Shown here: in pieces, positions 2,264 to 64,000 of the stretch
Numbering within the stretch: the stretch's first letter is position 1
How the letters are laid out: each line of letters opens with the position of its first letter
Origin: a virus
IMG/VR virus record: IMGVR_UViG_3300020462_000003
Coordinates: 1-64,000 of that record
Reading direction: 5' to 3' (one strand)
DNA length: 64,000 nucleotides
The notes under the pieces: generated by a model
What the model was told of the DNA's origin: nothing
Databases searched by the model: none
The model's input: only the letters and a program-made list of their open reading frames with translations
Made by a program: the position numbers and the translations under genes

Positions 2264-2614
2264 ATGTCCGTAGAAAAGCAGATCAAGGAACTACCAGAAT
2301 GGTATCCCGACAAGGTAACCGAGCAGCAGATGGCTGACATTCTGGGCACCACCAACCGCTCCCTGGAAGCCAGAAGAGCAAGGAATCAGATCCCTGAAGG
2401 GGTTTGGAACCGCATGAATGGCCGCATTTACTACAGCCGATCGAGGTTTGAATCATGGCAAGAAAGCCAATGGCACTGCCCACAGGAGTTGAACTCCACT
2501 ACGGTGCGCTCCGTATCCGATTCAGTTGGAATGGAAAACGCTGCTCCGAAACACTCGACTACCCCACGACGCAAGCGGGGATCACAGCTGCATCCCGTCT
2601 ACGCGATAAAGTAG
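2264..2614 (+). CDS. xis: excisionase-like DNA-binding protein
   Basis: The first 66 or so residues look like a DUF1233-type excisionase: a short N-terminus, a helix-turn-helix-like stretch (TEQQMADILGTTNRSLEARR), then the typical PEGVWNRMNGRIYYS wing and a SRFESWQES end. It should bend attachment-site DNA and steer the adjacent integrase towards excision. The reading frame continues for 50 more residues inside the integrase gene, overlapping it by 160 bases. That tail is low-complexity and probably unimportant. Gene order xis then int is standard for temperate phages but not for N4-like ones. The ribosome site lies within a hairpin. Confidence 0.7.
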   Translation: MSVEKQIKELPEWYPDKVTEQQMADILGTTNRSLEARRARNQIPEGVWNRMNGRIYYSRSRFESWQESQWHCPQELNSTTVRSVSDSVGMENAAPKHSTTPRRKRGSQLHPVYAIK

Positions 2615-3642
2615 TCCAGATGGCCAAGCACGGCACCCTCACCCCTGAGGCCTATGCCGAGCTGTTTCCCAACTCCACCAATGCCATGGCCGCTGTCAGC
2701 TACACCTTTGGCCAGTATGCCCAGGTCTGGCTCGACAGCCGTAACCTGGCTGCTGGCACACGGGTCAACTACCGGTCAGTGCTCAACCACTGGTGGATGA
2801 AGTACCTGGCCACAACACCCCTGCACGCTATGACCACGGCATTCATGCGTGAACTGGTGGTTCGTGTTCCCTGGACCACCGATGGCGTCAAAGCCAATGC
2901 GATGAACAAGCTGAGCACCATCCTGGAGTCAGCGGTGAGTGACAAACTGATCACTGAGAACCCTCTGGTGGATCTGGACATTCCTAGACCCAAGGAGAAG
3001 ACCATTGATCCCTTCACTCAGGTGGAGGCTGAGCTGATCATCGACAAGCTGTACGCCACTGAGCATTGGCCCAGCGAGATCTATGCAGCCTTCTTTGAGT
3101 TCACCTTCTTCACCGGTATGCGTCTAGGTGAAGTGGCTGCACTCAAGTGGGATTCAGTTGAGCTGGATAAGCGTCGTGTGCTGGTTCGCCGTACGGTTGC
3201 CCAGAAAGAAGTGGAAGACCGAACCAAGACCAAGAAGGATCGGTATGTGTTGCTCAATGACCGGGCCATTCATGCACTGGAGTTCGCCAAGGCTTATGCC
3301 GAACGGCGACTGAAAGGGACGGGCAAGCTCACCGAGTTTCCGTACTGCTTCCCACCCAGCAAGAAGTCCCAGTACATCCAACAGACCAGTGACCTGCACC
3401 ATCAGTGGCGACCTACCCTGAAGGCACTGGGTATTCGATACCGTCCTCCGTACAATGCGCGCCACACGTACGCAACCATGTGTTTGATGGCCGGGATGAC
3501 CCCTGCCTTCATCGCCAAACAGCTTGGCCACTCGTTACAAATTCTCCTCTCTCGATACGCTCGTTGGATCGAAGGGGAAGGTGATTGGAACGAAATGGGA
3601 AAATTGAAAATTGCCCCGAAATTGGCCCGAAGCGAAACCTAA
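2455..3642 (+). CDS. int: tyrosine recombinase integrase
   Basis: The 395-residue protein has the full architecture of a phage integrase. An N-terminal arm-binding domain (residues 1-75) with GVELHYGALRIRFSW is followed by a SAM-like core-binding domain (about 80-185) and a catalytic domain. Catalytic residues are visible: R223 in TGMRLGE, a lysine in the KTKKDRYV hairpin, R336-H337 in NARHTYAT, the LGHS motif, and the nucleophile Y368 in SRYARW. It should integrate and, with Xis, excise the phage genome. The frame looks intact. Its last codons contain two TTGCCCCGAA/TTGGCCCGAA repeats that recur downstream as possible arm sites. The start at 2455 is chosen for the arm domain. Confidence 0.95.
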   Translation: MARKPMALPTGVELHYGALRIRFSWNGKRCSETLDYPTTQAGITAASRLRDKVVQMAKHGTLTPEAYAELFPNSTNAMAAVSYTFGQYAQVWLDSRNLAAGTRVNYRSVLNHWWMKYLATTPLHAMTTAFMRELVVRVPWTTDGVKANAMNKLSTILESAVSDKLITENPLVDLDIPRPKEKTIDPFTQVEAELIIDKLYATEHWPSEIYAAFFEFTFFTGMRLGEVAALKWDSVELDKRRVLVRRTVAQKEVEDRTKTKKDRYVLLNDRAIHALEFAKAYAERRLKGTGKLTEFPYCFPPSKKSQYIQQTSDLHHQWRPTLKALGIRYRPPYNARHTYATMCLMAGMTPAFIAKQLGHSLQILLSRYARWIEGEGDWNEMGKLKIAPKLARSET

Positions 3643-3813
3643 CCCTCTGAAACCCGCGAGATAGAGCTTCTTGATTTCTACAGCTAACATCACCATGCAG
3701 TTCTAGGTGGGTTTTTTTGAGGTCTGTTGAACGTATTTACTGGGCTGCAGGCCCCTCAACAGCCCTCAAAAACACCCAATTGGCCCGAAAAGTGGCCCGA
3801 GATTTGGCCCGGA
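3611..3813. other. candidate attP region with integrase arm-type iterons
   Basis: Five near-identical decamers lie on both sides of a non-coding stretch just after int. They are TTGCCCCGAA (3611), TTGGCCCGAA (3622), TTGGCCCGAA (3780), GTGGCCCGAG (3792) and TTGGCCCGGA (3804). The last three have exactly 12-base spacing. Between the two clusters sits a long imperfect inverted repeat. Arm-type sites flanking a core directly behind int are typical of phage attachment sites. I cannot name the core crossover sequence or the host target, and I saw no tRNA 3' end here. Confidence 0.5.
3709..3777. repeat. 22-bp inverted repeat between int and the lysis genes
   Basis: The arm at 3709-3730 and the arm at 3756-3777 are reverse complements at 20 of 22 positions, separated by 25 bases. 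The loop itself can form GGGC/GCCC. It lies inside the candidate attP between the iteron clusters. It could be a recombinase-related structure or part of the transcriptional boundary between convergent int and lysis transcripts. Confidence 0.65.
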
Positions 3814-27600: not shown

Positions 27601-30600
27601 ACCGAGCCAGGTACTCAGAACCCTGCCCCTTCGAATTAAAGACGTGATCCCACTGCTGGGTATTCAGGGCAGTACGGATGTTCGGGTTACGACGAGCCTC
27701 CTCGTACAGGCGAACCAGCTGCTTGCGTGTGCCTTGAGCTTCGGCACTGTCCAGCGTCTCCTGGAAGGTCAACTGAGCCAGCTCCAAGGCAAAGGTCTCT
27801 TGCTCATTCAGGCCAATGCCTGCTGTAGCGGTATCAGCAGAGAATGGCAGGATGCCGAGCACCTTGGCTTGCATGATCTGCGCGATTGGGTCAGTGGCCT
27901 GAGTGCTTTGCATCTGCGCCTTCAGCACGCCAAAAGGACCCTGCAACCGTGACATGACCCCACTCACCAGGGCTTGCAGACGTGCAGTCTGATCCTGGCT
28001 CATCGGCTTGTTGGCCTGAGCCAATGAATCGAACACCTGCAAGGTATCCATCGCAGCCTGCGACGTGGCTCGTTGACGCAGGGTCAGTCCTGCCTGCTGG
28101 TTGCGGGTCACCCCGGCTTCGTAGAACAAACCAGAGGTATTGGTGATCAGTGCCGTCAGTGCCGAGGCTGCCTGTTCTTTCTCGGTCTTGCTCGATCCAT
28201 TGAAGAGAATGCCCACCACCGAATCGATGAACTTACGCATCGCCTTGATCAATCCGTTCGGGCCTTTACGCTGGCTCTCGAAGGTCATCTTGTTCAGCAC
28301 ATCACGCTGAAAGCCCTGGTTGGTCATGCCCCAGGAAATCAACTCATGGACGTTCTCGATGGCCGGTGCGTAGTTCTGCTGCAGCTGGGCATCCTTGGCA
28401 ATAAACGCTTCGGCCTGCACACGCAGCAGTTCCAGATCATCAATCAGATCCAGGGCTTCACTCTCATGCTCTGGATTGGCTGTGCGTGCAGCCAGTTCTG
28501 CTTCGATGGTCTGAGCCAAGGCACCGTGTACCAGCTCATGCAGCACCAGTTCAGGCGTCAGGTTGCCTACCTGAGAATCGGTGCTACGCAGGTAAATGGT
28601 CGGCGTGCCTCCCTCAGTGGTGAACCAGCCCAGCGAGTTGTCTACATCTTCGCCCTTCAGCTCACTCTTCGGCGTGTTCGGGGTGACGTAGCGGATCTCC
28701 AGTCCAGCATCAACCGTGTTGGCCAACATCTTCAACAGCTTGCGGTTGAGGTTCTGTACCCGTCCTGCAGGCGTGGCCAGCAGTGCCTGTTCAACCAGAC
28801 CAAAGACTTCCTTGGCTGGCATCACCGGCTTGGCTTTCAGGGCTGCTTCCAGGGGAGACAGCTCTTGTGTGTCGTCTTCTTCGACGACCTCTTCCTGAGC
28901 CTCTGCGGCCTTGCCGGGTTGCATCCCTTTCGCCTTTTCAGCCAGCAGCTCAGCAGCGGCCTGTACCTCGGCAGACAACACCGGCTGCAGGGTTTTGAGT
29001 TTGGCCTCGATGGCTTCACGATCCTTATCGGTTACCCGGTACACCCCTTTCTCCAGGGTGTACTGATCCAGGGTATCCACTTCCATCAACAGGTTGAGTT
29101 TGGCCTGGTCAGCGGCGTAGGCACCATACTTGGCTGCATCCAGTACATGCGGAATCAGCCTATCGAAAGGCACACCTTCCACATCCTTATCGAACGCCTT
29201 CTCTATCTGAACGTGGATCTGTCGCAACGCATCCATGTCGAAGGCATCACCTTCGGTCTCGATACGTTCAGCCAACGCCAGTACGGTACGTTCCAGAGCC
29301 TGGTAGGTCTGTTCGGGAATGGAGTAGTTCAGCAACGCCTCGAAGGTGTGTTTGTTCAGGCTGTTGGCACCCTTGACCATATCTTTGAGTGCCAGCCCCA
29401 GAGCGTCATGCACGTTCAAGGCTTCGACCTGTGCGTAGCTGCTCATGGCAATGAAGCTATCCGTACTCTGTACGCTTTTAGCCATACCACTGACGCCAGG
29501 GTCCTTCATCATTTCGGTCATGGCACGCACCTGCATGCGCGGACGACCATTGAAGGCAATCTGCGAGGAGTAGCGTGGATCACTGTTCAAGTGTCGCTCG
29601 GACTGGGTAGCGAAGACTGCGCCTTCTGTACTGCCTGTCTGAGAGCTGGCCGTATGCAGGCGAGGCTCGAAGGCTTTCACCCGCTCACGTAACACCTTGG
29701 TCTGCTCTGCCGTCAGGTCATGCAGCGGAACACGCACTTCATCCTTATTGCGCTTGAAGGCCATCAGCCCTGCATCCATCAGCTCCTCTTCGTAGCGGCC
29801 ACGTTCCAGTGCGTACATCTGGTCGTAGATGGCATACGCCGCCTGCAACGTGTTGTTGATCTGGGTACGTGCCGCCATGAAGTCGCCAAGGTTCTCTTGC
29901 AGAGATACACGGGTGGCCTTGCCCAGCGAAACCTGGAAAGCACCCTTGAACAGGCTGGCTTGCTTGTCGGAGAACTCCCACTCCATCCCCTGCTCCAGGG
30001 TCATGGTTTCAGGGAGCAGCTGTGATTCCAGGAAGTACTTCTGCTTGCTGCTCATCTTCTTGCCCTTGGACATGCCCAGGGTCAGCAGCGCATTGATATC
30101 CCGAACAATCTGCTCCATCGAGTCAGGGGTCTTGTTCTTCTTGGCAGCCAAGGACTCCATTCGCGCATAGACCCGATCCAGGGTCTCTTCCGCCATGGCA
30201 TCCAGTGCGGTGAACACCGATGAGCCGTACATCAGCCCCGTCAAAGGGGTCTTGACCAGGTTACGCGCATCCTTGCTCACCGAGCCGTCTTCTGCCCGCA
30301 GTACGCCAGTAAACCGGTACAGGGCATCGATACCCCCTAGGCCTATGCTGTAGTCGCGATCAGACCATTCTTTAGTGATCTCCTGCATGGAGAACGTCAT
30401 GTCACTGGCCAGAGTCTGGTACAGGTCAAGATTGCCCAAGGCCTTCCAGGCACCAAAGCCCTTCTCGTCCATCGACTTCAGCATGAAGCCCCCTTTGGGA
30501 GCCAGGTTCTGCGTCATGGCACCGAGCAACCACAGGCTCAGCATCGGGCCGTTGGTCTTGCCGTCCACCTCACCCATCATGTGGGAAGTGAATACCTGCT

Positions 30601-33600
30601 TACCGGACTCCTTGGCTTGCAGGTAATCGGCCAGACCCAGCAAGGCATCGAAGCTGTGCATCTTCTCCTTGCCCTTGAGTACACCTGCCAGGATGGCTTC
30701 CTGACTTTCAGGCGTTACCGTCTCATTCCAGATTAGGTCACGGATGGCCTGAGCAGCCGCCCGATAAGTAGGATCGTTCTCGATCGATTCCCACTTGGCC
30801 AGGGTGGCTTCGTCACTTTGCTCGTCGGACTTGATGCCCAGGCCTTCCATTACCCGCAGCTGGAAGTTGATCAGCGATGTGTCGCCTGCACCCTTGCCCA
30901 TGGATACGTTGGATACCCAACCACCCATGCGGGTGACGAAGCGATGCACCTTACTGGTCTGAGGGTTGATGCCGTTTTCCTTGAGCATCACACGCTGGTT
31001 ATTGGACGTGGTAGGCGTCAGATGAAACGGTACATCCAGGGACGCATCGAGCTTGGAGATCTGCTGGAAGAACTCCATCAGGTGAGCAATCTCACGACGC
31101 AGGCCATCGTTCTTCGCTTCCTGGCTCTTGCGGTGAGCCTTGTGAACCTTCGTCTCGTCTACCAACACCACACCTGCGACCTGCTCGAAGACCTCCGGAT
31201 TGAGTAGGGTCACCACCTGCATGGAATCCGCACGCAGGTAACTGGTTCGCTTGGCGACCTTTTTCAGGATCTTCCATTGCAGGTCAGGAGTTTTCTGCAG
31301 TCCTTTTACATGCGTCTCCGGACGCATCTTCGGTGCGGTGAGTGCGGGAAATTGCACAGCCGACTCCACCCCGAAGACCTTGTTGAAGGCGCCTTCTGTC
31401 TGACGGGCCGACTCAACAATCGACTGAGCTTGCTGGTTCAACTCACCATTTTTCGTAACCAGTCGAATGAAGACGTGGTTGCCTGCGTTGTACTCTCGCT
31501 TGTCACGGGAAGCATCAACGACAGCTTTATCGGAGACAGTGGATGCTTCAACAATACCCTGCTCTTCCAGCATGGCCAGCGTGTGAGCACCCAAGGCGAT
31601 GCGCAGCCGATCATGGCTGTCACTAGGCGCATCTTTCTTCAGACGCAGCCCAAGCGCCTGTATAGCCATGTCACCCAGTCGATTAACCACCAGGTTACGG
31701 GTGGTGCCTACATCCGAGAGCAGGCGCATCAATGCAGGTGGGACAGCCAGATCCTGTTTACGCCCGATCTTGGCATTGACGGCTTCTTCGTTATCCAGAC
31801 GGGGCTTGCCGGAGGCTTCCAGAATCCAGCCATAGGCCGATACCGACAGGGCCGTGGCAATGTTCTCTTCCAGGTTCAGGTCATCGTCGTGCAGGAACTG
31901 CATGAAGTCGTAGGCGAAGGATTCGGTAAGGATCTTTCCTTCCTTGTTCTTCATGCGCTTGAGCTGGCCCTGAAGAGTGTCCTGCCAGGCTTCGGCTGCA
32001 ACCACGAAGCGGTTCAGCAAACCATGCTGCTCATCGGTCAGGTCACTGTCGATGAACGACTGGAACTTCGCCTTCCCAGACTTGATCTTGCTCATGAAGT
32101 CGGTGACCGAAGTCAGTGGCTTCTTGGCATGACGCACCTGCTCGAAGTCTTCGGCAACACGGTTCTGTGTGAGGTAGTTGGCTGCTTCAAAGGGTTTGCC
32201 CGAGGCTTCGGCAAACAGCTTCAGACGCCCATCCACCACCGCCTCTTCAAATAGATCCGGCTGAACATCGTCCTGCTTGTCTGCCAACCCTTCCATCCAC
32301 TGCAGGATGCCTGCTGCTTCTTCAGCAGCCAGATCCTGATCGGCGGCCAGCTCATCGATCTTGGCGTCCATGCGTTGCACGAACTCAGGGGAAGCCAGTC
32401 GAGCAATACGCGCACGCACAGGGGCAAAGGCTTCACGGATACTGTTCTCGTTGAACATGTCCGTGTAGAGGTTTTCAGCCGCAGTCTCGCCGTCGTCATC
32501 CAGCTCCTGCGGATTGGCATCCAGTAGCTTCTGGCCTTCAAGCAGACGCTCACGCGCATCCAAGTCGCTGACACGAGCAGCCTGCTCTACGAAATTGGCA
32601 GGCACATTTGCTTCAACTTCCTCGGCTACAGATGCAGGGTCCTGAACAGGTTCACTGGTTGGTTGGGGAATCTCTTGAGGGGCTTCCGCCACCGTAGCTT
32701 GAGCAGGTTCGGCAACCGGCTTGGCGATCTCCTGCCGGGGAGTTTCTGCCACAGTTACAGGCTCAGTCGGTGCAACAACAGCGGGAGCCTGCTTTACTGA
32801 CGAGGTACGCAGCTTGTACAGCGACTTCATCTCATTCAGCAGCGACTTCAGTGCAGCCGCTTCCTTACGGACTTCGTTGATACGGCCTGCCGATGCACGG
32901 GTGACTGTGAATCCACCGGCCTCTTTCATAGCCTTCATGCTCAAGGGTTGCGTGACGGGTCCCCAGTTACCTTCGGCATCCGGCACCACCTGCACACTGC
33001 CACCCTTCTTCTGGATGGCATCCAAGGCACTCTTCAGTGCGGTCACCTTCTTGATGTGACTCGCCGCAAAGTTCTGCAGATCCTTGATCTCTCGACGGGC
33101 CGTCACTTCATCCGGTGTAGTGGCGTTCAGGGCAGAAGTGATCCAGGAACGGTACTGCTTCATTCCCTTGTTCTTGTCCGAACCCAGACGGATCTCGTCG
33201 CTCACGGCACCGAAGTCCTTGAGCTGGTTTTCCGCTACACGACTGGCTGACAGGAATCGCAGATGCTTACGCTGTGCGTCATCCAGTTTGATGGACGGCG
33301 AATTAATCAGGTAATCCAGGGTGCTATCGGTCAGCGCCTCAGGGTTACGCATGGACAAGGTGAACGACTCGGCAACCGCTTTCTCCAGCACAGTCGGTTC
33401 AACAGTATCGGGTGTTTCGATGGCTTGTTTGATAGTGGCCTGAGCGGTCTCAGCTACCTTGCCGGTTACACGCTGCTCGAACTTACGGGCCGTCTCCAAC
33501 TGGGTTTCCAGCGTCTCGACCGCAGTCTTGGCACGCTTACGAGAATCTGCATCCGAACGCACGGCAACACGCTTCTCCAGAGCGGTGATGTACTGGGTGT

Positions 33601-35374
33601 ACTCAGCCACCGTTTCCGTGTCAGCAGGGTCTACGGCCGCCAGTTCGGTCTTGCGCTGATCCAGCTCTGCCTGCATCTCCTGCACCCGTTCAGGGGCGTA
33701 CTCAGCCAGCGTCGCCTTCTTCTTGTCCAGGGATGCCTGCATATCCCCGACCAGGGATACCAGTTCCTGACTCTTGGCTTCCTTTTGTTCTGGAGCCAGA
33801 TCAGCCTTCTCGATGTGACGCATCAGTGCCCGAGCACCCAGCACGGGGTTGTAGGTAGCCGACTCAGGGTTGACCAGCGCCTCTACGTCACCTGTTTCAG
33901 CCGCCTTGTCTGCTGCTTTCTGGGCGTCGTCGTAGCGGGCCAAGGCTTCTTTCTGCTCACGGCTGGCACCGCCCATGACCGAACCCATGGCAGTACCGGT
34001 GACCAGACCCATGGCAGCCGCATTACCTACACCTTCATCGTAGGGACGGTCCAACGCCAGGTTCTGCAGCACCTGCTCGCCTGAGGATTGGACAGCTTCC
34101 TCACCCCCCTCCAGACCTGCAGCGCCTACTGTGCGGGGCACTACCGGTTTGGTGGATGTGCCCAGTGCGCCTTTAACCAGAGCTTCATCCACGTCACCCA
34201 AGCCTGCCTTGTTGGCCAGGCCACCACTGAGACGATTGACCAGCGAACCCATGACGCCTGTACCACCGGCAGCAGCAGTCTGCTTGAGTGACAGCAAGCC
34301 ATCAGCGGTCTGCTGACGGATACCCTCAGCTGCACTGCCTGCCATGACCAGGCCTTCGCCTGCTGCAGCTGCTACCTTGCTGCCTGCACCTAAGGCCTGC
34401 AAACCACGGCCAAACAAACCACCTGCCAGCATGGAGGGGATGGATTCACCCACAGCATGAGGAACAACACTGGGGTTGGCTGCGATCTCTTCCATCGTGT
34501 CCCAGAAGCCTTCGGCCTGACCGACGTTTTCGTCGGCATACCGCTGTTCCCAAGTCTTCAGGGTGTCGAGGAATTCACGAGCCTCCTCAGGACGGAAACC
34601 GGCTTCTTCGAGCGTCTTGCCTGCATGGCCACCCGACACAATGTCAGCCAGACCCACGGCCATCTCGGGAACGCTCACAGCACCCTTGACCGCAGTGACA
34701 GTACCGTCCTGCGTGGCACGGCGCATCAGACTATTGGTTCGCTCTTCCGTCTCCCCCATACCGGCCAGCGAATCCCAGTTGGATAGCTGATCGATCTTCT
34801 CGGAGAAGCCCCGAGCCTTCAGGGCACGTTCCAGTCGATCCAGGTTAGCGGCACCTTCCCTCGCTGGCATCTGGGCAGACCCGAACGTCATCTCACGCTG
34901 GGACAGCAGATCCATATCGGCATCGGTAGCCTGGTTGGTGCGGTAACGGCCATAGGCTTCTTTGGCAGCAGCATCCACCGAGGCTTCCTCGGCAAAGGCG
35001 TACGCATCCAACGGAGCCTGCAGGACATTACCCCCCAGAGCAGCGGCATCCTTGGCGAAGGACGCCAACTGGTTGATCACCATGCCTGGATATCCCTCAT
35101 GATCCAGACCCAACTTACTCACAACACTGTTGGCGTTGGCTTCATCAATGCGACCTTGCCGTTCACGAAACCGACGATTACCGTCGATGATCGATGCCGT
35201 ACGGGTAGCCTCACGCGCTGCCAATGAATTAGGTATCGGCTCCTGGTCCTTCAGCGCACCCAGTACTTGACGCTTTAATTCAGTTGCTTGCGCCAGCTTT
35301 TCCTTTTTAAGTTCGGTCAAGGAGATAGAGCGTAGTTCTTCTGGGAGTTCTGGAAGTTCTGGGAGCTGAGCCAT
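24626..35374 (-). CDS. virion RNA polymerase, N4 gp50-like
   Basis: At 3582 residues this matches the size of N4 vRNAP, which is packaged in the head, injected with DNA and transcribes early genes from hairpin promoters. The central polymerase domain shows the T7-family motifs: the DxxGR-equivalent R1461 in TSNNQR, motif A D1604 in DGKTNGP, motif B R1704-K1708-Y1716-G1717, and motif C H1989-D1990. The spacings between motifs (143, 104, 282 residues) closely track N4 vRNAP. About 1300 residues precede and 1550 follow the polymerase domain. The C-terminal part holds an HELVH zinc-peptidase-like motif at 2279-2283. It is the last gene of the late minus-strand unit. Confidence 0.97.
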   Translation of the reverse strand: MAQLPELPELPEELRSISLTELKKEKLAQATELKRQVLGALKDQEPIPNSLAAREATRTASIIDGNRRFRERQGRIDEANANSVVSKLGLDHEGYPGMVINQLASFAKDAAALGGNVLQAPLDAYAFAEEASVDAAAKEAYGRYRTNQATDADMDLLSQREMTFGSAQMPAREGAANLDRLERALKARGFSEKIDQLSNWDSLAGMGETEERTNSLMRRATQDGTVTAVKGAVSVPEMAVGLADIVSGGHAGKTLEEAGFRPEEAREFLDTLKTWEQRYADENVGQAEGFWDTMEEIAANPSVVPHAVGESIPSMLAGGLFGRGLQALGAGSKVAAAAGEGLVMAGSAAEGIRQQTADGLLSLKQTAAAGGTGVMGSLVNRLSGGLANKAGLGDVDEALVKGALGTSTKPVVPRTVGAAGLEGGEEAVQSSGEQVLQNLALDRPYDEGVGNAAAMGLVTGTAMGSVMGGASREQKEALARYDDAQKAADKAAETGDVEALVNPESATYNPVLGARALMRHIEKADLAPEQKEAKSQELVSLVGDMQASLDKKKATLAEYAPERVQEMQAELDQRKTELAAVDPADTETVAEYTQYITALEKRVAVRSDADSRKRAKTAVETLETQLETARKFEQRVTGKVAETAQATIKQAIETPDTVEPTVLEKAVAESFTLSMRNPEALTDSTLDYLINSPSIKLDDAQRKHLRFLSASRVAENQLKDFGAVSDEIRLGSDKNKGMKQYRSWITSALNATTPDEVTARREIKDLQNFAASHIKKVTALKSALDAIQKKGGSVQVVPDAEGNWGPVTQPLSMKAMKEAGGFTVTRASAGRINEVRKEAAALKSLLNEMKSLYKLRTSSVKQAPAVVAPTEPVTVAETPRQEIAKPVAEPAQATVAEAPQEIPQPTSEPVQDPASVAEEVEANVPANFVEQAARVSDLDARERLLEGQKLLDANPQELDDDGETAAENLYTDMFNENSIREAFAPVRARIARLASPEFVQRMDAKIDELAADQDLAAEEAAGILQWMEGLADKQDDVQPDLFEEAVVDGRLKLFAEASGKPFEAANYLTQNRVAEDFEQVRHAKKPLTSVTDFMSKIKSGKAKFQSFIDSDLTDEQHGLLNRFVVAAEAWQDTLQGQLKRMKNKEGKILTESFAYDFMQFLHDDDLNLEENIATALSVSAYGWILEASGKPRLDNEEAVNAKIGRKQDLAVPPALMRLLSDVGTTRNLVVNRLGDMAIQALGLRLKKDAPSDSHDRLRIALGAHTLAMLEEQGIVEASTVSDKAVVDASRDKREYNAGNHVFIRLVTKNGELNQQAQSIVESARQTEGAFNKVFGVESAVQFPALTAPKMRPETHVKGLQKTPDLQWKILKKVAKRTSYLRADSMQVVTLLNPEVFEQVAGVVLVDETKVHKAHRKSQEAKNDGLRREIAHLMEFFQQISKLDASLDVPFHLTPTTSNNQRVMLKENGINPQTSKVHRFVTRMGGWVSNVSMGKGAGDTSLINFQLRVMEGLGIKSDEQSDEATLAKWESIENDPTYRAAAQAIRDLIWNETVTPESQEAILAGVLKGKEKMHSFDALLGLADYLQAKESGKQVFTSHMMGEVDGKTNGPMLSLWLLGAMTQNLAPKGGFMLKSMDEKGFGAWKALGNLDLYQTLASDMTFSMQEITKEWSDRDYSIGLGGIDALYRFTGVLRAEDGSVSKDARNLVKTPLTGLMYGSSVFTALDAMAEETLDRVYARMESLAAKKNKTPDSMEQIVRDINALLTLGMSKGKKMSSKQKYFLESQLLPETMTLEQGMEWEFSDKQASLFKGAFQVSLGKATRVSLQENLGDFMAARTQINNTLQAAYAIYDQMYALERGRYEEELMDAGLMAFKRNKDEVRVPLHDLTAEQTKVLRERVKAFEPRLHTASSQTGSTEGAVFATQSERHLNSDPRYSSQIAFNGRPRMQVRAMTEMMKDPGVSGMAKSVQSTDSFIAMSSYAQVEALNVHDALGLALKDMVKGANSLNKHTFEALLNYSIPEQTYQALERTVLALAERIETEGDAFDMDALRQIHVQIEKAFDKDVEGVPFDRLIPHVLDAAKYGAYAADQAKLNLLMEVDTLDQYTLEKGVYRVTDKDREAIEAKLKTLQPVLSAEVQAAAELLAEKAKGMQPGKAAEAQEEVVEEDDTQELSPLEAALKAKPVMPAKEVFGLVEQALLATPAGRVQNLNRKLLKMLANTVDAGLEIRYVTPNTPKSELKGEDVDNSLGWFTTEGGTPTIYLRSTDSQVGNLTPELVLHELVHGALAQTIEAELAARTANPEHESEALDLIDDLELLRVQAEAFIAKDAQLQQNYAPAIENVHELISWGMTNQGFQRDVLNKMTFESQRKGPNGLIKAMRKFIDSVVGILFNGSSKTEKEQAASALTALITNTSGLFYEAGVTRNQQAGLTLRQRATSQAAMDTLQVFDSLAQANKPMSQDQTARLQALVSGVMSRLQGPFGVLKAQMQSTQATDPIAQIMQAKVLGILPFSADTATAGIGLNEQETFALELAQLTFQETLDSAEAQGTRKQLVRLYEEARRNPNIRTALNTQQWDHVFNSKGQGSEYLARFAALAMVWEPLHDQMSFETDKDTRKVSQMKLGERIQWLWEQLLDALQHRLFKVYSGQQADEKLSVLARRLVDLEYRKQNRRTGPVGAAREQLEDALDGVSTKAKQQVLRVLESPMLDQHKNAFVRAASSIAAASVDDQVGQLVDAGKVLRDRLYQGKLGLMAGVINEMREGNKVADLLLLSTKFLETVRMKIKTDFAKMSLDSFAENGEYLTQRMKDAVTKVALRTDMQSLLGPFDSAGLLDLMTDKAARDKAIAQYEAQLSGPFKDAYIQGVKQLAYRMAVKVKGYNTQQNALGIALRLNTPDSTKVSLEEGREIAKVLDPLVSLYALEYTDANQRMQAAQVMRKELERDDKGNGIEVILKLHRHMQKESAEKLFKDSELLMMKGYLPEVYNPHTEIITAPASEVARMVAQGYEVVGPLEQDDTDVVLKDLVLLRLTDRGLPNRQTGVVTYTGQHHKGTEVHAPLYSRNGYVDKHAARINRAITRAVQAQPIDPNYDPRKDSKVYMAPVINAVGEAAGYRYLMSEQMKDQLLERNNSFDLLLGALESNIFDKSNVTQQNRKAFEALKDQYDQEYTKNPDAYITFGPDSKDASIRETWRILPPASKQALRDVWGSDNLMVRNDIYDQTFGYSAYSLSKIMELDEAQRNFSEDMFFKMTDLMVRWQLKREGHTGVDLEDRAKRAALMIRRGEDRWMEVIRVVKDILVVKTGMTLLWNVVSNYTQLWLSGVPVVDIAKNSWVALQGVLDYRKDESELSALQAQLASGAVVGDVREMQQKILRLENTLAKSPVRSLIEAGLLSSIVEDVDTADSDYSYKSRWVKSLEQHADRVPDALKSVAKVAFVTHDTALYRVLSQGTQVSDFVARYTLYQQLISRKKNPLSHEDAVLKVSRAFVNYDKPSHQLLDYANRMGLVYFTKYYLRIQHVIMDLMKENPARALMLLAFDGYLDGAQTLIDSAAVNQFGNPLDIGAFKMLDAWDETLPIQAISSLIK

Positions 35375-58214: not shown

Positions 58215-58438
58215 GTATCACCGTCTTGGTGGTTTACCTCTGCACATCTGCTGCCATGGACAACTGTTCCGTCTGGCAAGAAGGCAGCTGGACCGGTGCA
58301 GCAGCACCCATCTACTGCACCGTCGAGCGTGATCTGGCTGAAGCCAGCGTCCTGCCCAATCAATTCATTCGTTACGAATGTGAAACCGTCGAGACCGAAC
58401 AGGTCGCGCGCACCCAACACAAAGGAATAAACCAATGA
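58211..58438 (+). CDS. small cysteine-containing protein
   Basis: The 75-residue protein starts MSITVLVVYLCTSAAMDNCS, a weak signal-like N-terminus, and continues with WQEGSWTGAAAPIYC and RYECETVETEQV. It is coupled to its neighbours by ATGA overlaps on both sides, the second with the AAA ATPase. Cysteine spacing suggests a small exported beta domain. Function unknown. Confidence 0.6.
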   Translation: MSITVLVVYLCTSAAMDNCSVWQEGSWTGAAAPIYCTVERDLAEASVLPNQFIRYECETVETEQVARTQHKGINQ

Positions 58439-58767
58439 AGGTAAAACTCAGCCAAGCACACGACATGATCGTGCAGTGCATCAAGGTCGGCCTGGTCCCG
58501 ATCGTCAAGGGCAGCCCTGCCGTGGGCAAGTCCTCCATCGTTCACCAGATCGCCAAGGAATACGGTCTCAAGGTCATCGACCTGCGCCTTGCTCAGTGCG
58601 ACCCAACCGATCTGCTGGGCTTCCCCAACACTGCCAATGGCCGGGGCCGCTATGTACCCATGGAAACCTTCCCCATCGAAGGAGATGAGCTTCCGAAGGG
58701 CTACGAAGGCTGGCTGTTGTTCATGGATGAGTTCACCAGTGCTCCGCGTGGCGTGCAGGCTGCTGCT
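58435..58767 (+). CDS. MoxR-like AAA ATPase, exon 1 (N4 gp24-like)
   Basis: Residues 1-111 of an ATPase that is completed by exon 2 at 59651. Walker A GSPAVGKS is at residues 26-33 and Walker B LLFMDE at 94-99. The frame hits a stop directly after GVQAAA, where the group I intron begins. Joined to exon 2, the sequence reads on as AAYKLVLDRM, the expected helix of MoxR-type ATPases, giving a protein of 337 residues. It pairs with the VWA protein at 61344 as N4 gp24 and gp25 do, probably as a chaperone-like remodelling couple. Confidence 0.9.
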
Positions 58768-59650
58768 TAATTTATAGGCATTCACAGAAGAGACTCTGTG
58801 TCTAAAGCTACTTAAAACGGGAAACTCTGACTAGCTTATATCTGCTTGCACTTAGTTGTGCTTGTTTGTAAGCTAAAGACAATCCGTTGCTAAGTAGGAA
58901 TTGAAATGACTGAAATCTGGAAAGACATTCTTGGATATGAAGAGACTTACGAAGTTTCCAACTTCGGAGGAATCCGTTCCAAGAGCCGAGTAGTCCCTTG
59001 TAAAGGGGGAACTCGTACCGTCAAAGGCCAAATCAGAAAAACCTTTCTGAACAGAAAGGGATATCCAATTACCACGTTGTGTCAAAACAACAAACTGATG
59101 ACATTTACTGTTCACCAGTTGGTAGCTCAAGCCTTTATTCCCGGCTTCATCAAAGGAACGGAAATTAACCATAAGGATGGAAATCCTGGTAACCCTTCCG
59201 TAACTAATTTGGAAGTATCCAACCCATCTCATAATCAGCTACATGCTGTGAGGATGGGTCTGGTCCCTAAACAAGGGATATCCAAATACCGGAACGTGAC
59301 TTATGTGAGTAACCCTCGGGCGAAATATAAGTGGGCGGGATCGGTACGACATGCAGGCAAATCCGTCTTTGGATGGAAAACCTTCATGACTGAGGAAGAA
59401 GCAGCGCGCCATGTTGACTGGTTGCTTGATTCCATTGGAGACACTGACCGGATTCGGAACTTCCCTTCAATTCCTTAAATGCCCAACGACTAGTCCGCTA
59501 TAGGACGTAGGCCCAAGTGGGTCGAAATGGTAGCCCCCCAAACAGGTCAAGCTGTGGGGGTTGATATAGTCTGCTCTGCATAGAAATATGCAGCAGTGAT
59601 GCCTCAGGAACATCACGGGTAAGGCGTAACGCCCCTTACTGAACACAAGG
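58768..59650 (+). ncRNA. group I intron in the AAA ATPase gene
   Basis: The 883-base intron has its 5' splice site after the U of GCT (58767) and ends in G (59650), the group I rule. Near the 3' end the core is recognisable: AACGACTAG (from 59484), the P7 strand, pairs later with GATATAGTC (about 59564-59572), the P7 partner. Removal joins the two ATPase exons in frame. It carries an HNH endonuclease gene in a peripheral loop. The exact splice point could shift by one base, because both exon edges allow T. Confidence 0.92.
58906..59478 (+). CDS. HNH homing endonuclease in the intron
   Basis: The 190-residue protein has a NUMOD4 start (WKDILGYEETYEVSNFGGIRS), an HNH domain (VHQLVAQAFIPGF then INHKDGNPGNPSVTNLEVSN and HNQLHAVRMG) and an AP2-like C-terminal DNA-binding domain (KYRNVTYVSNPRAKYKWAGS). 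It should cut intron-free alleles of the ATPase gene and promote intron homing. Codon use is more AT-rich than that of the exons, which fits recent arrival. Confidence 0.93.
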   Translation: MTEIWKDILGYEETYEVSNFGGIRSKSRVVPCKGGTRTVKGQIRKTFLNRKGYPITTLCQNNKLMTFTVHQLVAQAFIPGFIKGTEINHKDGNPGNPSVTNLEVSNPSHNQLHAVRMGLVPKQGISKYRNVTYVSNPRAKYKWAGSVRHAGKSVFGWKTFMTEEEAARHVDWLLDSIGDTDRIRNFPSIP

Positions 59651-60331
59651 TATAAATTAGTCCTGGATCGCATGGTCGGTACTCACACCCTGCACAAGAA
59701 AGTCGCCATCGTCTGTGCAGGCAACCTGGAGACAGACGGAGCCATCGTCGAAGAGATGAGCACGGCTCTGGAATCTCGCTTGGTTCACATGGAAGTCACG
59801 GTGGACCACAAGGACTGGTGTGAAGGATGGGCCATGCAGAACGGCATCGACCACCGCATCACCAGCTTCATCAAATTCAAACCAGGGATGCTGTACACCT
59901 TCAGCCCTGATCACACCGACTGCACCTACGCCAGCCCCCGAACCTGGGAGTTCGCCAACCGCCTGGTCAAGGGCAAAGAGATCGGTATCGACGACATTCC
60001 TCTGTTGGCTGGAACCATCTCCGAAGGCGTGGCACGCGAGTTTCGAACCTTCACCCAGATCTACAGCAACCTGCCCACCCTGACCCAGATGATGGAACAG
60101 GCCACCACGCTGCCGGTGCCTCAGGAACCCAGCATCCTGTTTGCACTGACCGGTTCGATTGCGCACAACGCCAACGATGAGAACGCAGGTCCGCTGATGG
60201 ACTTCGTGTCCCGTCTGCCGATCGAGTTTCAGGTGGTCACCCTGCGTGAAATGGTACGTCGTAGCCCTGCCCTGATGAACCACAAGTCCGTCCAGGCGTG
60301 GATCACCAAGAACGCGAAGGAGCTGTTCTGA
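59651..60331 (+). CDS. MoxR-like AAA ATPase, exon 2 (N4 gp24-like)
   Basis: This is the 226-residue remainder of the ATPase, in frame with exon 1 from TAT at 59651. It begins YKLVLDRMVGTHTLHKKVAIV, contains the sensor-1 strand VAIVCAGN, the arginine-finger-like SRLVHMEV region and a C-terminal helical lid (PLMDFVSRLPIEFQVVTLREM). An ATG at 59672 lies inside exon 2, so unspliced RNA could yield a truncated protein without the Walker motifs. It ends one base before the next ORF. Confidence 0.92.
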   Translation, partial: YKLVLDRMVGTHTLHKKVAIVCAGNLETDGAIVEEMSTALESRLVHMEVTVDHKDWCEGWAMQNGIDHRITSFIKFKPGMLYTFSPDHTDCTYASPRTWEFANRLVKGKEIGIDDIPLLAGTISEGVAREFRTFTQIYSNLPTLTQMMEQATTLPVPQEPSILFALTGSIAHNANDENAGPLMDFVSRLPIEFQVVTLREMVRRSPALMNHKSVQAWITKNAKELF

Positions 60332-60332
60332 C

Positions 60333-60827
60333 ATGGGCGACCGCACCTACGTGTACCTCTATGTGCCTGCCGAGTTGTTCGAGCAGGCCAAAGAGATCGC
60401 CATCAAGTACGACGGTCAACCTGAAGAGGAAAACACTGACGATGATCAGCTTCACTACCTTGGCTTCGAGGAAGTGAATTACGGGGAGCTGAATTGCATC
60501 CGGGAGCTGCAATTAGCAGGCATACCCTATGACATGGACTGGGCTGATGGAGCCAACTACGAAGAGGGGGTACAGCACTGCCGCTTCACCGAAACAGGGG
60601 AACTCTCTCTCAAGGTCGTAATGGGGAGCGATCACAGCATCGATCCCTCCGTACTGGAAGAGGTCATCAAAAAGCATAACACCCTCGATGCCGTGAAGGA
60701 TTTTCTGAAGAAACATAACGAAGTTGTCAATCCACTCCCTTGGGACAACCAAGTCGAGTATGGAAAGATATACCGCACCAAACAACTAATTGCGGGCAAT
60801 ACAGAACAGTTGACCCTCAACACATAA
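60333..60827 (+). CDS. hypothetical protein
   Basis: The 164-residue acidic protein starts MGDRTYVYLYVPAELFEQAK and continues with acidic EEENTDDDQLHYLGFEEVNYG and a helical EEVIKKHNTLDAVKDFLKKHN part. I recall similar proteins in other phages but no function. It starts one base after the ATPase stop, so it is co-expressed. The region after it (60828-60914) holds a TTCCG/CGGAA hairpin and no gene. Confidence 0.65.
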   Translation: MGDRTYVYLYVPAELFEQAKEIAIKYDGQPEEENTDDDQLHYLGFEEVNYGELNCIRELQLAGIPYDMDWADGANYEEGVQHCRFTETGELSLKVVMGSDHSIDPSVLEEVIKKHNTLDAVKDFLKKHNEVVNPLPWDNQVEYGKIYRTKQLIAGNTEQLTLNT

Positions 60828-60914
60828 CGACTATTCCGCTAAATACTTAGACGGAACAGCGCTGCCAAAGTGCAACACACTTAACTCAATCCAAGTAGTA
60901 GACAGGTAGTATAA

Positions 60915-61091
60915 ATGCTCGTATTAACCCGCAAGGCAGGTCAGGCAATTCACATCGGCGACAACATTGTTGTTCGTATTCTGGGTTATCAGAACGGTCA
61001 CTTCCGCGTGGGCATTGAAGCCCCCAAGGACATTGATATTCAACGGGACGATATGAAGAATCCAAAAAAGCCGGAAGTTGTCAGTGAATAG
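60915..61091 (+). CDS. csrA: CsrA/RsmA family translational regulator
   Basis: The 58-residue protein begins MLVLTRKAGQAIHIGDNIVV and continues VRILG, FRVGIEAPKDIDIQRDD, matching CsrA along its length. The R6 and R44-equivalent positions (LTRKAG and IQRDD) keep the RNA-contact arginines. It should bind GGA motifs in mRNA leaders as a dimer, repressing or stabilising host or phage messages. It is too short for most gene finders. It lies in the middle-gene region and overlaps the next small gene by eight bases. AGACAGG is a weak ribosome site. Confidence 0.92.
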   Translation: MLVLTRKAGQAIHIGDNIVVRILGYQNGHFRVGIEAPKDIDIQRDDMKNPKKPEVVSE

Positions 61092-61242
61092 TTCAGGTAC
61101 ACGGAAACCCAGAATACTTCGCAAGAAGTCTTTTGAAGTAACCCTGAACAGCACCTGCGATATCTGTGGTCAGCACCGTGGCGGGAGTTCTCCTGTCAGT
61201 CACATCAAGTGTTCCAAGATTCGTCAGAATCGTCCGAAGTAA
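61084..61242 (+). CDS. small Cys/His protein downstream of csrA
   Basis: The 52-residue, basic protein begins on GTG at 61084 inside the csrA end. It has CDICGQHRGG and HIKCSKIRQ, a likely zinc knuckle of the CxxC...H...C type, and is rich in Lys and Arg. Nucleic-acid binding is plausible. The eight-base overlap with csrA suggests coupled translation. Confidence 0.6.
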   Translation: MNSSGTRKPRILRKKSFEVTLNSTCDICGQHRGGSSPVSHIKCSKIRQNRPK

Positions 61243-61259
61243 CTAATACACAGTTCAAT

Positions 61260-61298
61260 AGTTCAACTTGCGGGATAGTTATATCTGCAAGTTGAACT
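61260..61298 (+). promoter_or_regulatory. 12-bp perfect inverted repeat before the VWA gene
   Basis: AGTTCAACTTGC (61260-61271) and GCAAGTTGAACT (61287-61298) are exact reverse complements with a 15-base loop that contains GGGATAG. No T-run follows, so an operator or a regulatory mRNA hairpin is more likely than a terminator. The loop GGA is a possible CsrA target; this is speculation. Confidence 0.55.
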
Positions 61299-61343
61299 TC
61301 TGTTGTCCAGTTAGTTGTAACTCTCTATCAAAGGAAGTTCGTC

Positions 61344-62450
61344 ATGTCATTGCAAGATGCCAACAAGGCTCTCGATAAAGCCAAGATCGGTCTTATGAGT
61401 AAGCCTGATAGTGCTTTCTTTACCACCCTCTGTCTTTCGTTTCGTCATCTGTTTGACGAGACCATTCCAACTGCGTGTGTGTCCGATACCGAGATCCGGA
61501 TCAACCCGCAGTTCTTCCTTTCGCTCTCCGATCAAGAGCGGATATTCGTCCTGGTGCATGAGTGCATGCACCCTGCCCTGATGCACACCGTGCGTCGAGG
61601 GGATCGTGATCCCGTGAAGTGGAACATCGCTGGCGATCACGTCATCAACCTGATGCTGCTGGATCGTGGCTTCAAGATGCCTGATTGGGTACTCAAGGAC
61701 CGTCAGTACCAGGGGATGAGTACCCTGCAGGTATACGACCTGTTGCCGGATGATCCCCAAGCACCCCGCATGCAGGACTTGTCGCCCAGCTCTCAGTCTC
61801 CCGAGGAGCAACAACAAACCGAGCAAAACATCACCGATATCGTCATGCGTGCTGCTACGCAGTCGGCGATGAGTGGAGATACACCAGGCACCATTCCAGG
61901 TGATATCCAGATCTTCCTGGATGAATACCTCAACCCCATACTTCCATGGGACAAGTTACTACGGAAGTTCTTCAATCAGTTCGCCAAGACGGACTACACC
62001 TGGAAGCGTCCTAATCGCCGTTTCATGCCTGAGCATATTCTCCCAACACTTTACGGCATCACCCTCGGTGAAATAGCCGTTGCCGTTGATACGTCTGGTT
62101 CCGTCAGTGACGCAGACTTCCATCGCTTCATCAGTGAAGTAAATGGAATCATGAAGAAGTTGAAACCCTCACAAATAACCCTGTTGCAGTTTGATACCCG
62201 CATCCATAAAAAGGATGTACTCAAAAGTGTATCTGACTTAAATCAGGTCACGTTCCACGGACGTGGGGGTACGAATGTTTCAGAAGTAATCCAGTGGGCC
62301 AGAGACAACAAGCCAGTTGCACTCTTGTTATTCAGCGACGGTGAATTCAGGCATGTAACGCCTGCACCGAAGTGTCCGGTATTGTGGGTTATCCACAACA
62401 ACAAAAAGTTTACTGCCCCCTACGGGAAAGTTATCCACTACAACATCTGA
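61344..62450 (+). CDS. VWA-domain protein, N4 gp25-like
   Basis: The 368-residue protein joins a metallopeptidase-like N-terminal domain, with HECMH at residues 72-76, to a C-terminal von Willebrand A domain with the MIDAS motif D249-TSGS. It is the partner of the interrupted MoxR ATPase, the usual MoxR/VWA pairing, and N4 carries the same couple. The pair may remodel a host or phage protein complex. AAAGGAAG precedes the ATG. Confidence 0.88.
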   Translation: MSLQDANKALDKAKIGLMSKPDSAFFTTLCLSFRHLFDETIPTACVSDTEIRINPQFFLSLSDQERIFVLVHECMHPALMHTVRRGDRDPVKWNIAGDHVINLMLLDRGFKMPDWVLKDRQYQGMSTLQVYDLLPDDPQAPRMQDLSPSSQSPEEQQQTEQNITDIVMRAATQSAMSGDTPGTIPGDIQIFLDEYLNPILPWDKLLRKFFNQFAKTDYTWKRPNRRFMPEHILPTLYGITLGEIAVAVDTSGSVSDADFHRFISEVNGIMKKLKPSQITLLQFDTRIHKKDVLKSVSDLNQVTFHGRGGTNVSEVIQWARDNKPVALLLFSDGEFRHVTPAPKCPVLWVIHNNKKFTAPYGKVIHYNI

Positions 62451-62458
62451 GGTGAATC

Positions 62459-62785
62459 ATGGAAGTTGCTGAAGCACTTAAACAAGTTAAAGCAGCAGGT
62501 AAGCGCAACAGCAACTACCTGGTTATCAACCTAAGTTATAACCACCAAATCCTGCTGCCCTACAACGAAGGGATGTTATTCGTATCTAGCCTAGAAAAGG
62601 CAGAGACTCTTGAAGTCCCTTATTCAAGACCGCCAGTAGTTAAAGGTTTTGAAATGTCATCCATAGAGTTCCGAGTTATATCGGAGCACGAGTACCACCG
62701 ACACAAAGTTGCTCAACTGATGGGGGTTTCTCTCGACAGTGTTAATTCACTGGAACCCATACAATCACCCAAGGAAGAAGCATGA
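62459..62785 (+). CDS. hypothetical protein
   Basis: The 108-residue protein reads MEVAEALKQVKAAGKRNSNY then beta-rich LVINLSYNHQILLPYNEGML and a helical HEYHRHKVAQLMGVSLDSV end. No family recognised. Its stop overlaps the helicase ATG (ATGA). Confidence 0.65.
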   Translation: MEVAEALKQVKAAGKRNSNYLVINLSYNHQILLPYNEGMLFVSSLEKAETLEVPYSRPPVVKGFEMSSIEFRVISEHEYHRHKVAQLMGVSLDSVNSLEPIQSPKEEA

Positions 62786-64000
62786 ACGCACTTACCCTGT
62801 CACCCGATCAACAAGCAGGCTATGAGGCCTTCTCCAGTTTTCTGTTGGACCTACATAAGTCTGTGTTCGTCCTGGCAGGGCATAGTGGCACGGGTAAGAG
62901 CACCCTGGTTCGCACCCTGCTGGAGCAGATTGACAACCTCTTCAAGATGGCCCGTCTGATCAACCCCAACTACCCCGTCTTCGACGTGAAACTCACGGCC
63001 ACTACCAACAAGGCCTGTGAGGCGCTTCGCCACATCACGGCACGGGAAGTCACCACGATCCAGTCAGCCTTAGGACTGCGTGTACAGACGGACTACAGCA
63101 CCAATACCACTCGACTGGTGGTTCGCCAGGGTGCTGATATCGTTCAGAACACCGTGCTGTTTATCGATGAAGCCAGCTTCATTGATCGGGATCTGTTACT
63201 CACCATTTTCAAGCGTACCGAACGCTGCAAGATCATCTTCATTGGTGACCCTGCTCAGCTGACACCTGTGAAGAGCGATATCACACCTGTGTTCGAAGCG
63301 GGATACGAAGGGGTGCATCTGTCCAAGGTGGTTCGCCAGGCCGAAGGCAACCCGATCATCGAGTTGTCTACCAAGTTCCGCGAGACGGTCACCTCAGGGG
63401 AGTTCTTCAGCTTCCAGCCGGACGGTCACTTCATCCAGCACATGGATCGGGCAGCGTTCGATCAGGCGATCCTGGCTGAGTTCGGACGCCCTGACTGGCA
63501 CTACCACGACTCCAAGGTTCTGGGTTGGACTAACAAGTGCGTGGTGGCTTACAACCGGGGCATCCGGGACTTCATTCAAGGAGATCCGGACTTCCAGATC
63601 GGTGACTACGCCGTGTGTAACCACTTCGTTGGGACCAAGGGTTACAGCATCAAAACCGATCAGTTGGTGCAAATCACCAGTATCAGTGAACCCTCGTTCG
63701 AGCTGGGCTTACCAGGCAAGTACTTCCAGGTGGACGGCAACGTCACCAAGTTCATGCCCGACTCACTCACTGACAAGAAGGCTCTGGTACGTCAGGCCCA
63801 GAACGAAGGCAACGCCATGGCGCTGTACGAGATGGATACCAACTGGATCGATCTGCGTGCAGCCTTCGCATGCACCATCAATAAAGCCCAAGGCAGCACC
63901 TTCCGCAAAGTCTTCATCGACCTCGACGACATTAGAAAATGCACCCTGGGTAGCCAGATTGCACGCCTGATGTACGTGGGTGTAAGCCGTGCCAGCGAGC
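62782..64000 (+). CDS. Dda-like SF1 helicase, partial
   Basis: The first 406 codons of a helicase that continues past the window. Motif I is AGHSGTGKST (residues 32-41), motif Ia/Ib region TATTNKACEALRHI, motif II FIDEAS, motif III GDPAQLTPV, and near the edge the INKAQGST segment of motif V and RLMYVGVSRA of motif VI. It should unwind DNA 5'-3' at replication forks. In N4 the helicase (gp37) precedes the DNA polymerase, which would therefore lie just outside. Confidence 0.93.
   Translation, partial: MNALTLSPDQQAGYEAFSSFLLDLHKSVFVLAGHSGTGKSTLVRTLLEQIDNLFKMARLINPNYPVFDVKLTATTNKACEALRHITAREVTTIQSALGLRVQTDYSTNTTRLVVRQGADIVQNTVLFIDEASFIDRDLLLTIFKRTERCKIIFIGDPAQLTPVKSDITPVFEAGYEGVHLSKVVRQAEGNPIIELSTKFRETVTSGEFFSFQPDGHFIQHMDRAAFDQAILAEFGRPDWHYHDSKVLGWTNKCVVAYNRGIRDFIQGDPDFQIGDYAVCNHFVGTKGYSIKTDQLVQITSISEPSFELGLPGKYFQVDGNVTKFMPDSLTDKKALVRQAQNEGNAMALYEMDTNWIDLRAAFACTINKAQGSTFRKVFIDLDDIRKCTLGSQIARLMYVGVSRASE

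Follow-up and report, generated by a model that had tools for sequence, protein, structure and literature searches.

The csrA locus and its genomic context

The window, by which we mean the whole stretch of 64,000 nucleotides analyzed here, is taken from a virus record of 74,266 bases, of which it covers positions 1-64000. The following features lie at and around its csrA gene:

60333..60827, plus strand: gene for a 164-aa protein of phrog_31558, a function-unknown, lineage-variable neighbor upstream of csrA (PHROG match, synteny)
60828..60861, plus strand: hairpin H1 in the csrA leader, core 60834-60856 (RNAalifold, one compensatory pair; z -3.3)
60915..61091, plus strand: csrA, encoding a 58-aa CsrA/RsmA-family RNA-binding protein (MLVLTRKAGQAIHIGDNIVVRILGYQNGHFRVGIEAPKDIDIQRDDMKNPKKPEVVSE; Pfam PF02599, locus conservation, dN/dS, AF2/Foldseek)
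61073..61077, plus strand: GGAAG Shine-Dalgarno sequence of the zinc-protein gene, within the csrA coding sequence (from sequence; invariant in the aligned genomes, alignment A1)
61084..61242, plus strand: gene for a 52-aa basic protein with the C2HC motif CX2CX11HX2C and a GTG start (8-nt overlap with csrA; conserved in 5 genomes)
61260..61298, plus strand: hairpin H2 between the zinc and VWA genes, with GGAUAGUUA at its apex (z -6.2; paired in 5 genomes)
61344..62450, plus strand: gene for a VWA/DUF2201 metallopeptidase-like protein, a Schitoviridae core gene downstream (Pfam DUF2201_N, DUF2201)

The gene set of the window is N4-like, comprising a 3582-aa virion RNA polymerase ORF, two small RNA polymerase genes, an ATPase, the VWA protein, a helicase and a DNA polymerase. 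The giant virion RNA polymerase, RNAP1/2, the ATPase plus VWA gene pair and the capsid that are expected of Schitoviridae (N4-like phages) are all present, with homologues in N4-like records, and the gene set thereby bears out the N4-like assignment made in the preliminary description. Its placement of csrA in the middle region is likewise correct, the gene being flanked by the RNA polymerase/ATPase genes and by the VWA/helicase/DNA polymerase genes. No phage close to the window over 58-64 kb was found in the GenBank phage collection.

The virion RNA polymerase (24626-35374) shares just 33-34% identity, over an alignment that starts at residue 1063, with its counterparts in two related contigs (G013 and G014), whereas the capsid, terminase and DNA polymerase are ~90% identical between the window and the same two contigs. 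It seems from this disparity that the virion RNA polymerase module was exchanged between the window lineage and these relatives.

Identity and RNA-contact residues of the CsrA-family protein

For the csrA product, the Pfam CsrA profile (PF02599) returned a match of 68 bits (curated cut-off 27; E 6.9e-19), in agreement with the 58-codon CsrA/RsmA frame first noticed in the sequence, and the PHROG 'CsrA-like regulator' profile matched with E 3e-15. The region 60915-61091 is the sole CsrA match within the whole 74,266-base phage record. The AF2 monomer (pLDDT 81) contains the five strands and short helix of the CsrA fold, the strands pairing between subunits not being formed in this single-chain model; its 15 top PDB matches by Foldseek are all CsrA, RsmA or RsmE, and the nearest solved sequence is that of Pseudomonas RsmE. 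The NCBIfam csrA equivalog cut-offs were missed (TIGR00202, 57.2 vs 70.1 bits; NF002469, 58.5 vs 73), and with a score below these cut-offs the equivalence of the phage protein to cellular CsrA would not be considered established.

In an alignment of 20 phage and bacterial sequences, Thr5, Arg6, Lys7, Ala36, Pro37 and Arg44 are invariant, and the phage proteins retain Leu/Ile4, Thr5, Arg6, Lys7, Gly33, Ala36, Pro37 and Arg44, position 4 being Leu but Ile in three phage copies. Throughout the CsrA family, RNA binding requires Arg44 (PMC7366521). Loss of the RNA-contact residues, which the preliminary description had named as a sign that would speak against a CsrA, was thus not found; a deviation is seen at position 43, which is Gln in 5/5 phage copies (IQRD), whereas Pseudomonas Rsm proteins have His43 in a VHRE/D motif. 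The H43A mutation weakens RsmQ binding (PMC9928087). Residue 43 is highly variable across the aligned bacterial CsrA relatives, those of other phyla included, so that Gln43 may call for caution on affinity and on equivalence to Pseudomonas Rsm proteins but would be no argument against family membership. The window protein is a true member of the CsrA/RsmA family and an accessory gene product of one temperate N4-like clade.

Conservation and selection

The csrA gene occurs at the same locus, encoding 58 aa each time, in four related IMG/VR contigs (L003, L099, L100 and L101), with protein identities to the window of 76-88% and dN/dS values of 0.07-0.17. L003 is a close relative (95% DNA identity over 3.1 kb), and its csrA has 25 differences from that of the window, distributed as 5, 0 and 20 over codon positions 1, 2 and 3 (dN/dS 0.075); in the remoter relatives L099-L101, csrA is 76-78% identical with dN/dS of 0.14-0.17. 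Because of the constant length, the shared locus and these low dN/dS values, a chance ORF is excluded and the csrA frame is under purifying selection.

CsrA was not found in 17 further N4-like records or in nine integrase-relative records including G035, some of them fragments, and a capsid search in the first set of csrA contigs, most of which are fragments, was empty. A non-exhaustive scan of 84,980 species for chromosomal csrA donors, by short peptide patterns, gave best matches of 41-57% scattered over phyla; no recent chromosomal donor of the phage csrA appears to be visible. The expectation that genes this short would escape gene callers did not hold, as many phage records have an annotated csrA of similar length to the 52-58 codons considered here.

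The overlapping zinc-protein gene

The 52-codon Cys/His gene overlapping csrA, as first described, is real: the same contigs retain it, with dN/dS of 0.12-0.21 in divergent pairs, and the product matches the function-unknown family phrog_17140 (E 2.6e-9). The designation of zinc knuckle has to be abandoned. The spacing of a zinc knuckle is CX2CX4HX4C and that of the window protein is CX2CX11HX2C, of which His31 is not kept outside the clade. In the GenBank phage collection, relatives of the zinc protein are confined to Pseudomonas phages and none has a known function; the protein has no Pfam or NCBIfam family and no convincing PDB match, and its structure model is poor. The small zinc proteins of Pseudomonas phages in phrog_17140 and phrog_10699 share the CDICGxxRG...H.KCS.IR core with the window protein, from which they differ in that the window gene is predicted to be coupled to csrA, and translation of the zinc protein probably occurs through such coupling.

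History of the locus

The VWA/DUF2201 gene is present in 593 phage records. It directly follows the ATPase gene in Pylas and ZC03, whereas one ORF separates the two in Ka3. In G016/L105 it directly follows the 164-aa gene, with neither csrA nor the zinc gene there and no CsrA anywhere in the record. G035 has the zinc gene without csrA, the zinc-gene ATG overlapping the end of the 164-aa gene, and in the window and its four relatives csrA is placed between the 164-aa gene and the zinc gene. This layering suggests, as the simplest order, that the zinc gene came first and that csrA was inserted before it later, the alternative being a loss of csrA in G035.

Synonymous divergence between the window and L003 is 0.73 for csrA, 0.17 for the zinc gene, 0.08 for the VWA gene and 0.74 for the next small gene. 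The contrast between csrA and the VWA gene points to an exchange between relatives of a segment ending in csrA, and over 60893-62786 the pattern of synonymous divergence is that of a mosaic of exchanged segments.

Upstream, an HNH endonuclease gene (58906-59478) interrupts the ATPase gene (58435-60331), leaving it in two frames, an arrangement that resembles the annotated intron of Klebsiella phage Pylas. The ATPase gene is unsplit in L100 and L101, and L099 has a different HNH gene elsewhere in it. Rfam gave no intron match at the gathering cut-off for the split region and no match anywhere in the window. A scan of the csrA region for sigma-70 promoters and terminators returned signals no more frequent than chance.

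Temperate lifestyle

N4-like phages have long been regarded as strictly lytic. Two further features of the window bear on this:

2455..3642, plus strand: gene for a tyrosine integrase (PF00589, 67 bits)
3671..3703, plus strand: attP core, 33 bases that match codons 1-11 of host ybiT exactly, as seen at the G001 junction

The integrase is 91-99% identical in all four csrA-carrying relatives. In G001 (L108) and G012 (L111), homology to the window ends at 3703 and is followed by a host gene, an ABC-F ATPase by NCBIfam (PRK15064) that is annotated as YbiT in E. coli records, and G035 (L236) provides a third host-phage junction at ybiT. The window and G014 have an uninterrupted attP, and G013 is cut at the integrase stop, like a trimmed prophage. 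With an integrase and fixed-site host-phage junctions in three related contigs, the phage lineage is temperate; this lifestyle, overlooked in the preliminary description, may change the possible purpose of csrA. Repeats of the TTGGCCCGA type around the attP core may be integrase arm sites. The host of the window phage is likely a pseudomonad; the best plasmid-database match of the ybiT flank is to Halomonas (76%).

An association of csrA with the integrase was considered, all csrA-carrying records being integrase-positive at first and two sister records without, and was dropped because csrA-less N4-like records, the sister G016 included, carry other integrases. csrA is therefore not simply a lysogeny marker. 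Different tyrosine integrases were seen in the N4-like contigs G016, G018, G020, G021, G022 and G029, and judging from these genes, N4-like phages seem to have repeatedly acquired lysogeny modules. Relatives of the window integrase (74-76% identical) also lie on contigs of 19-54 kb (L218-L221, L223-L225 and L227; G036-G043), several of which stop at the integrase end, as trimmed proviruses would. The capsid protein of the window phage was not found in these contigs, so that the integrase may have been passed from one type of phage to another.

Flanking hairpins and a possible control of phage genes

If the phage protein acted on its own genome, by binding its own leader and the zinc-gene and VWA-gene mRNAs, it could tune the middle region or the lysis-lysogeny choice. 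This alternative to a host-directed role is a rather unlikely one. In its favor, csrA is flanked by H1 and H2, both with pair-preserving changes (several of them one-sided in H2 across 5 genomes); H2, which has no U-tract, occurs in one copy per genome in all five csrA-carrying genomes and is absent from the csrA-less G035; and GGA lies within the Shine-Dalgarno sequences of both the zinc gene and the VWA gene, although GGA is ordinary in such sequences. RsmE recognizes A(N)GGAX exposed atop a stem, and pairing of the GGA strongly weakens recognition (PMC4005645). As drawn, both hairpins are poor CsrA sites because these bases are paired: the ACGGA of H1 sits in the paired 3' arm, and H2 has its GG in base pairs and, in the window copy, a G for the preceding A, which rules out H2 as a canonical CsrA site (PMC4005645).

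The leaders of the window phage contain GGA and AnGGA at chance level (1.16 vs 1.25 and 0.297 vs 0.299 per leader, respectively, against shuffles), so that the enrichment that might signal self-regulation is not seen there. Among relatives, these motifs are ~2 sd high in the leaders of csrA-carrying G014 and ~1 sd high in those of G013, low in csrA-less G016, and at or below chance in csrA-less relatives; all of these counts rest on home-made gene calls and on comparison with shuffles and csrA-less relatives. Of the two roles offered in the preliminary description, a middle-to-late switch is thus unsupported, since the phage leaders are not GGA-enriched and the GGA of the hairpins is paired, while resetting of the host is plausible.

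The conservation of H1 and H2 across the csrA clade, together with the absence of H2 from G035, could also be read to mean that csrA, its flanking hairpins and the coupled zinc protein form a self-contained RNA-regulatory feedback cassette that sets lysogeny or host takeover, an idea that we regard as doubtful.

A possible host-directed role

The best reading of the locus, favored with moderate confidence, is that csrA encodes a host-directed accessory protein of the CsrA/RsmA family that would re-repress the host Gac/Rsm regulon. The protein would form the usual domain-swapped dimer, bind GGA-bearing leaders of host mRNAs and possibly also the host sponge RNAs RsmY/Z, and push the infected or lysogenic host toward an 'RsmA-active' state, in which the Gac/Rsm regulon, including pseudomonad defense and antagonism genes, would be held translationally repressed during phage replication or persistence. 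Host targets are the more likely ones given the lack of GGA/AnGGA enrichment in the phage's own leaders, and published parallels lend further support: plasmid RsmQ (pQBR103) takes over host Rsm targets and controls host traits (PMC9928087), CRISPR-Cas systems are under repression by RsmA, which phage RsmA genes have been suggested to exploit (PMC8450108), and the Gac/Rsm pathway coordinates pseudomonad defense against phages and bacteria (PMC11888443). Counting against a host-directed role, other temperate N4-like phages do without csrA, and Gln43, the sub-equivalog score and a host that is presumed to be a pseudomonad may each weaken it.

The host could instead be shifted indirectly if the phage protein mainly occupied RsmY/RsmZ or formed mixed dimers with host RsmA. 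Strong binding to RsmY/Z motifs is known for RsmQ, which may work in this manner (PMC9928087), and the predicted fold would give the same dimer interface, but CsrA is not known to form heterodimers in bacteria (PMC7366521), and such interference seems improbable as the main activity. That csrA is a passenger with no function at present, or that its frame arose by chance, as its small size, accessory nature and confinement to one clade might suggest, is very improbable and is largely refuted by the selection pattern, i.e., the low dN/dS, identical length and third-position bias described above. Should the host-directed reading be true and host RsmA targets be bound, the locus would offer a compact test of phage exploitation of Gac/Rsm control, which governs pseudomonad defense, during infection or lysogeny, and natural comparisons are at hand in the related contigs, some of which have csrA at this locus and others not.

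Comparison with known systems

Temperate N4-like viruses were reported previously with the Schitoviridae gene set plus an integrase, as in the window (PMC10654107); csrA goes unmentioned there, and searching the text revealed no ybiT attachment site. Phage-borne CsrA has also been surveyed (PMC7366521, PMC8450108), and csrA is annotated in dozens of phage records. Among the csrA phage records whose taxonomy was checked, which are part of 90 matches, no Schitoviridae were found: H66 belongs to Hollowayvirus, PTXU04 and Pondi belong to Xuquatrovirus, and three other records have no family assignment. The F116/H66-like (Hollowayvirus), Vibrio and Xuquatrovirus phages (phrog_9500, phrog_5527) are similar to the window phage in being tailed phages with a small CsrA-family gene, annotated as carbon storage regulator, but their proteins are <=53% identical to that of the window and their csrA genes have other neighbors.

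With RsmE/RsmA of Pseudomonas and CsrA of E. coli, the window protein has in common the fold, the N-terminal TRK/R strand, the APK turn and Arg44, and it is ~50% identical to RsmE in the core; it differs from them in its length of 58 aa, its short Lys-rich tail, Gln43 in place of His43 and its score below the NCBIfam equivalog cut-off. RsmQ of pQBR103 is an Rsm protein borne by a mobile element and acting on the host regulon, whereas the window CsrA is carried by a phage and has a predicted function. Phage and plasmid csrA genes, discussed among other things as potential suppressors of host defense, have already been published; what is new is the carrier of a known kind of gene, namely an N4-like lineage. 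The range of phage-borne CsrA thereby comes to include an N4-like phage that has an integrase and whose attachment site has been mapped.
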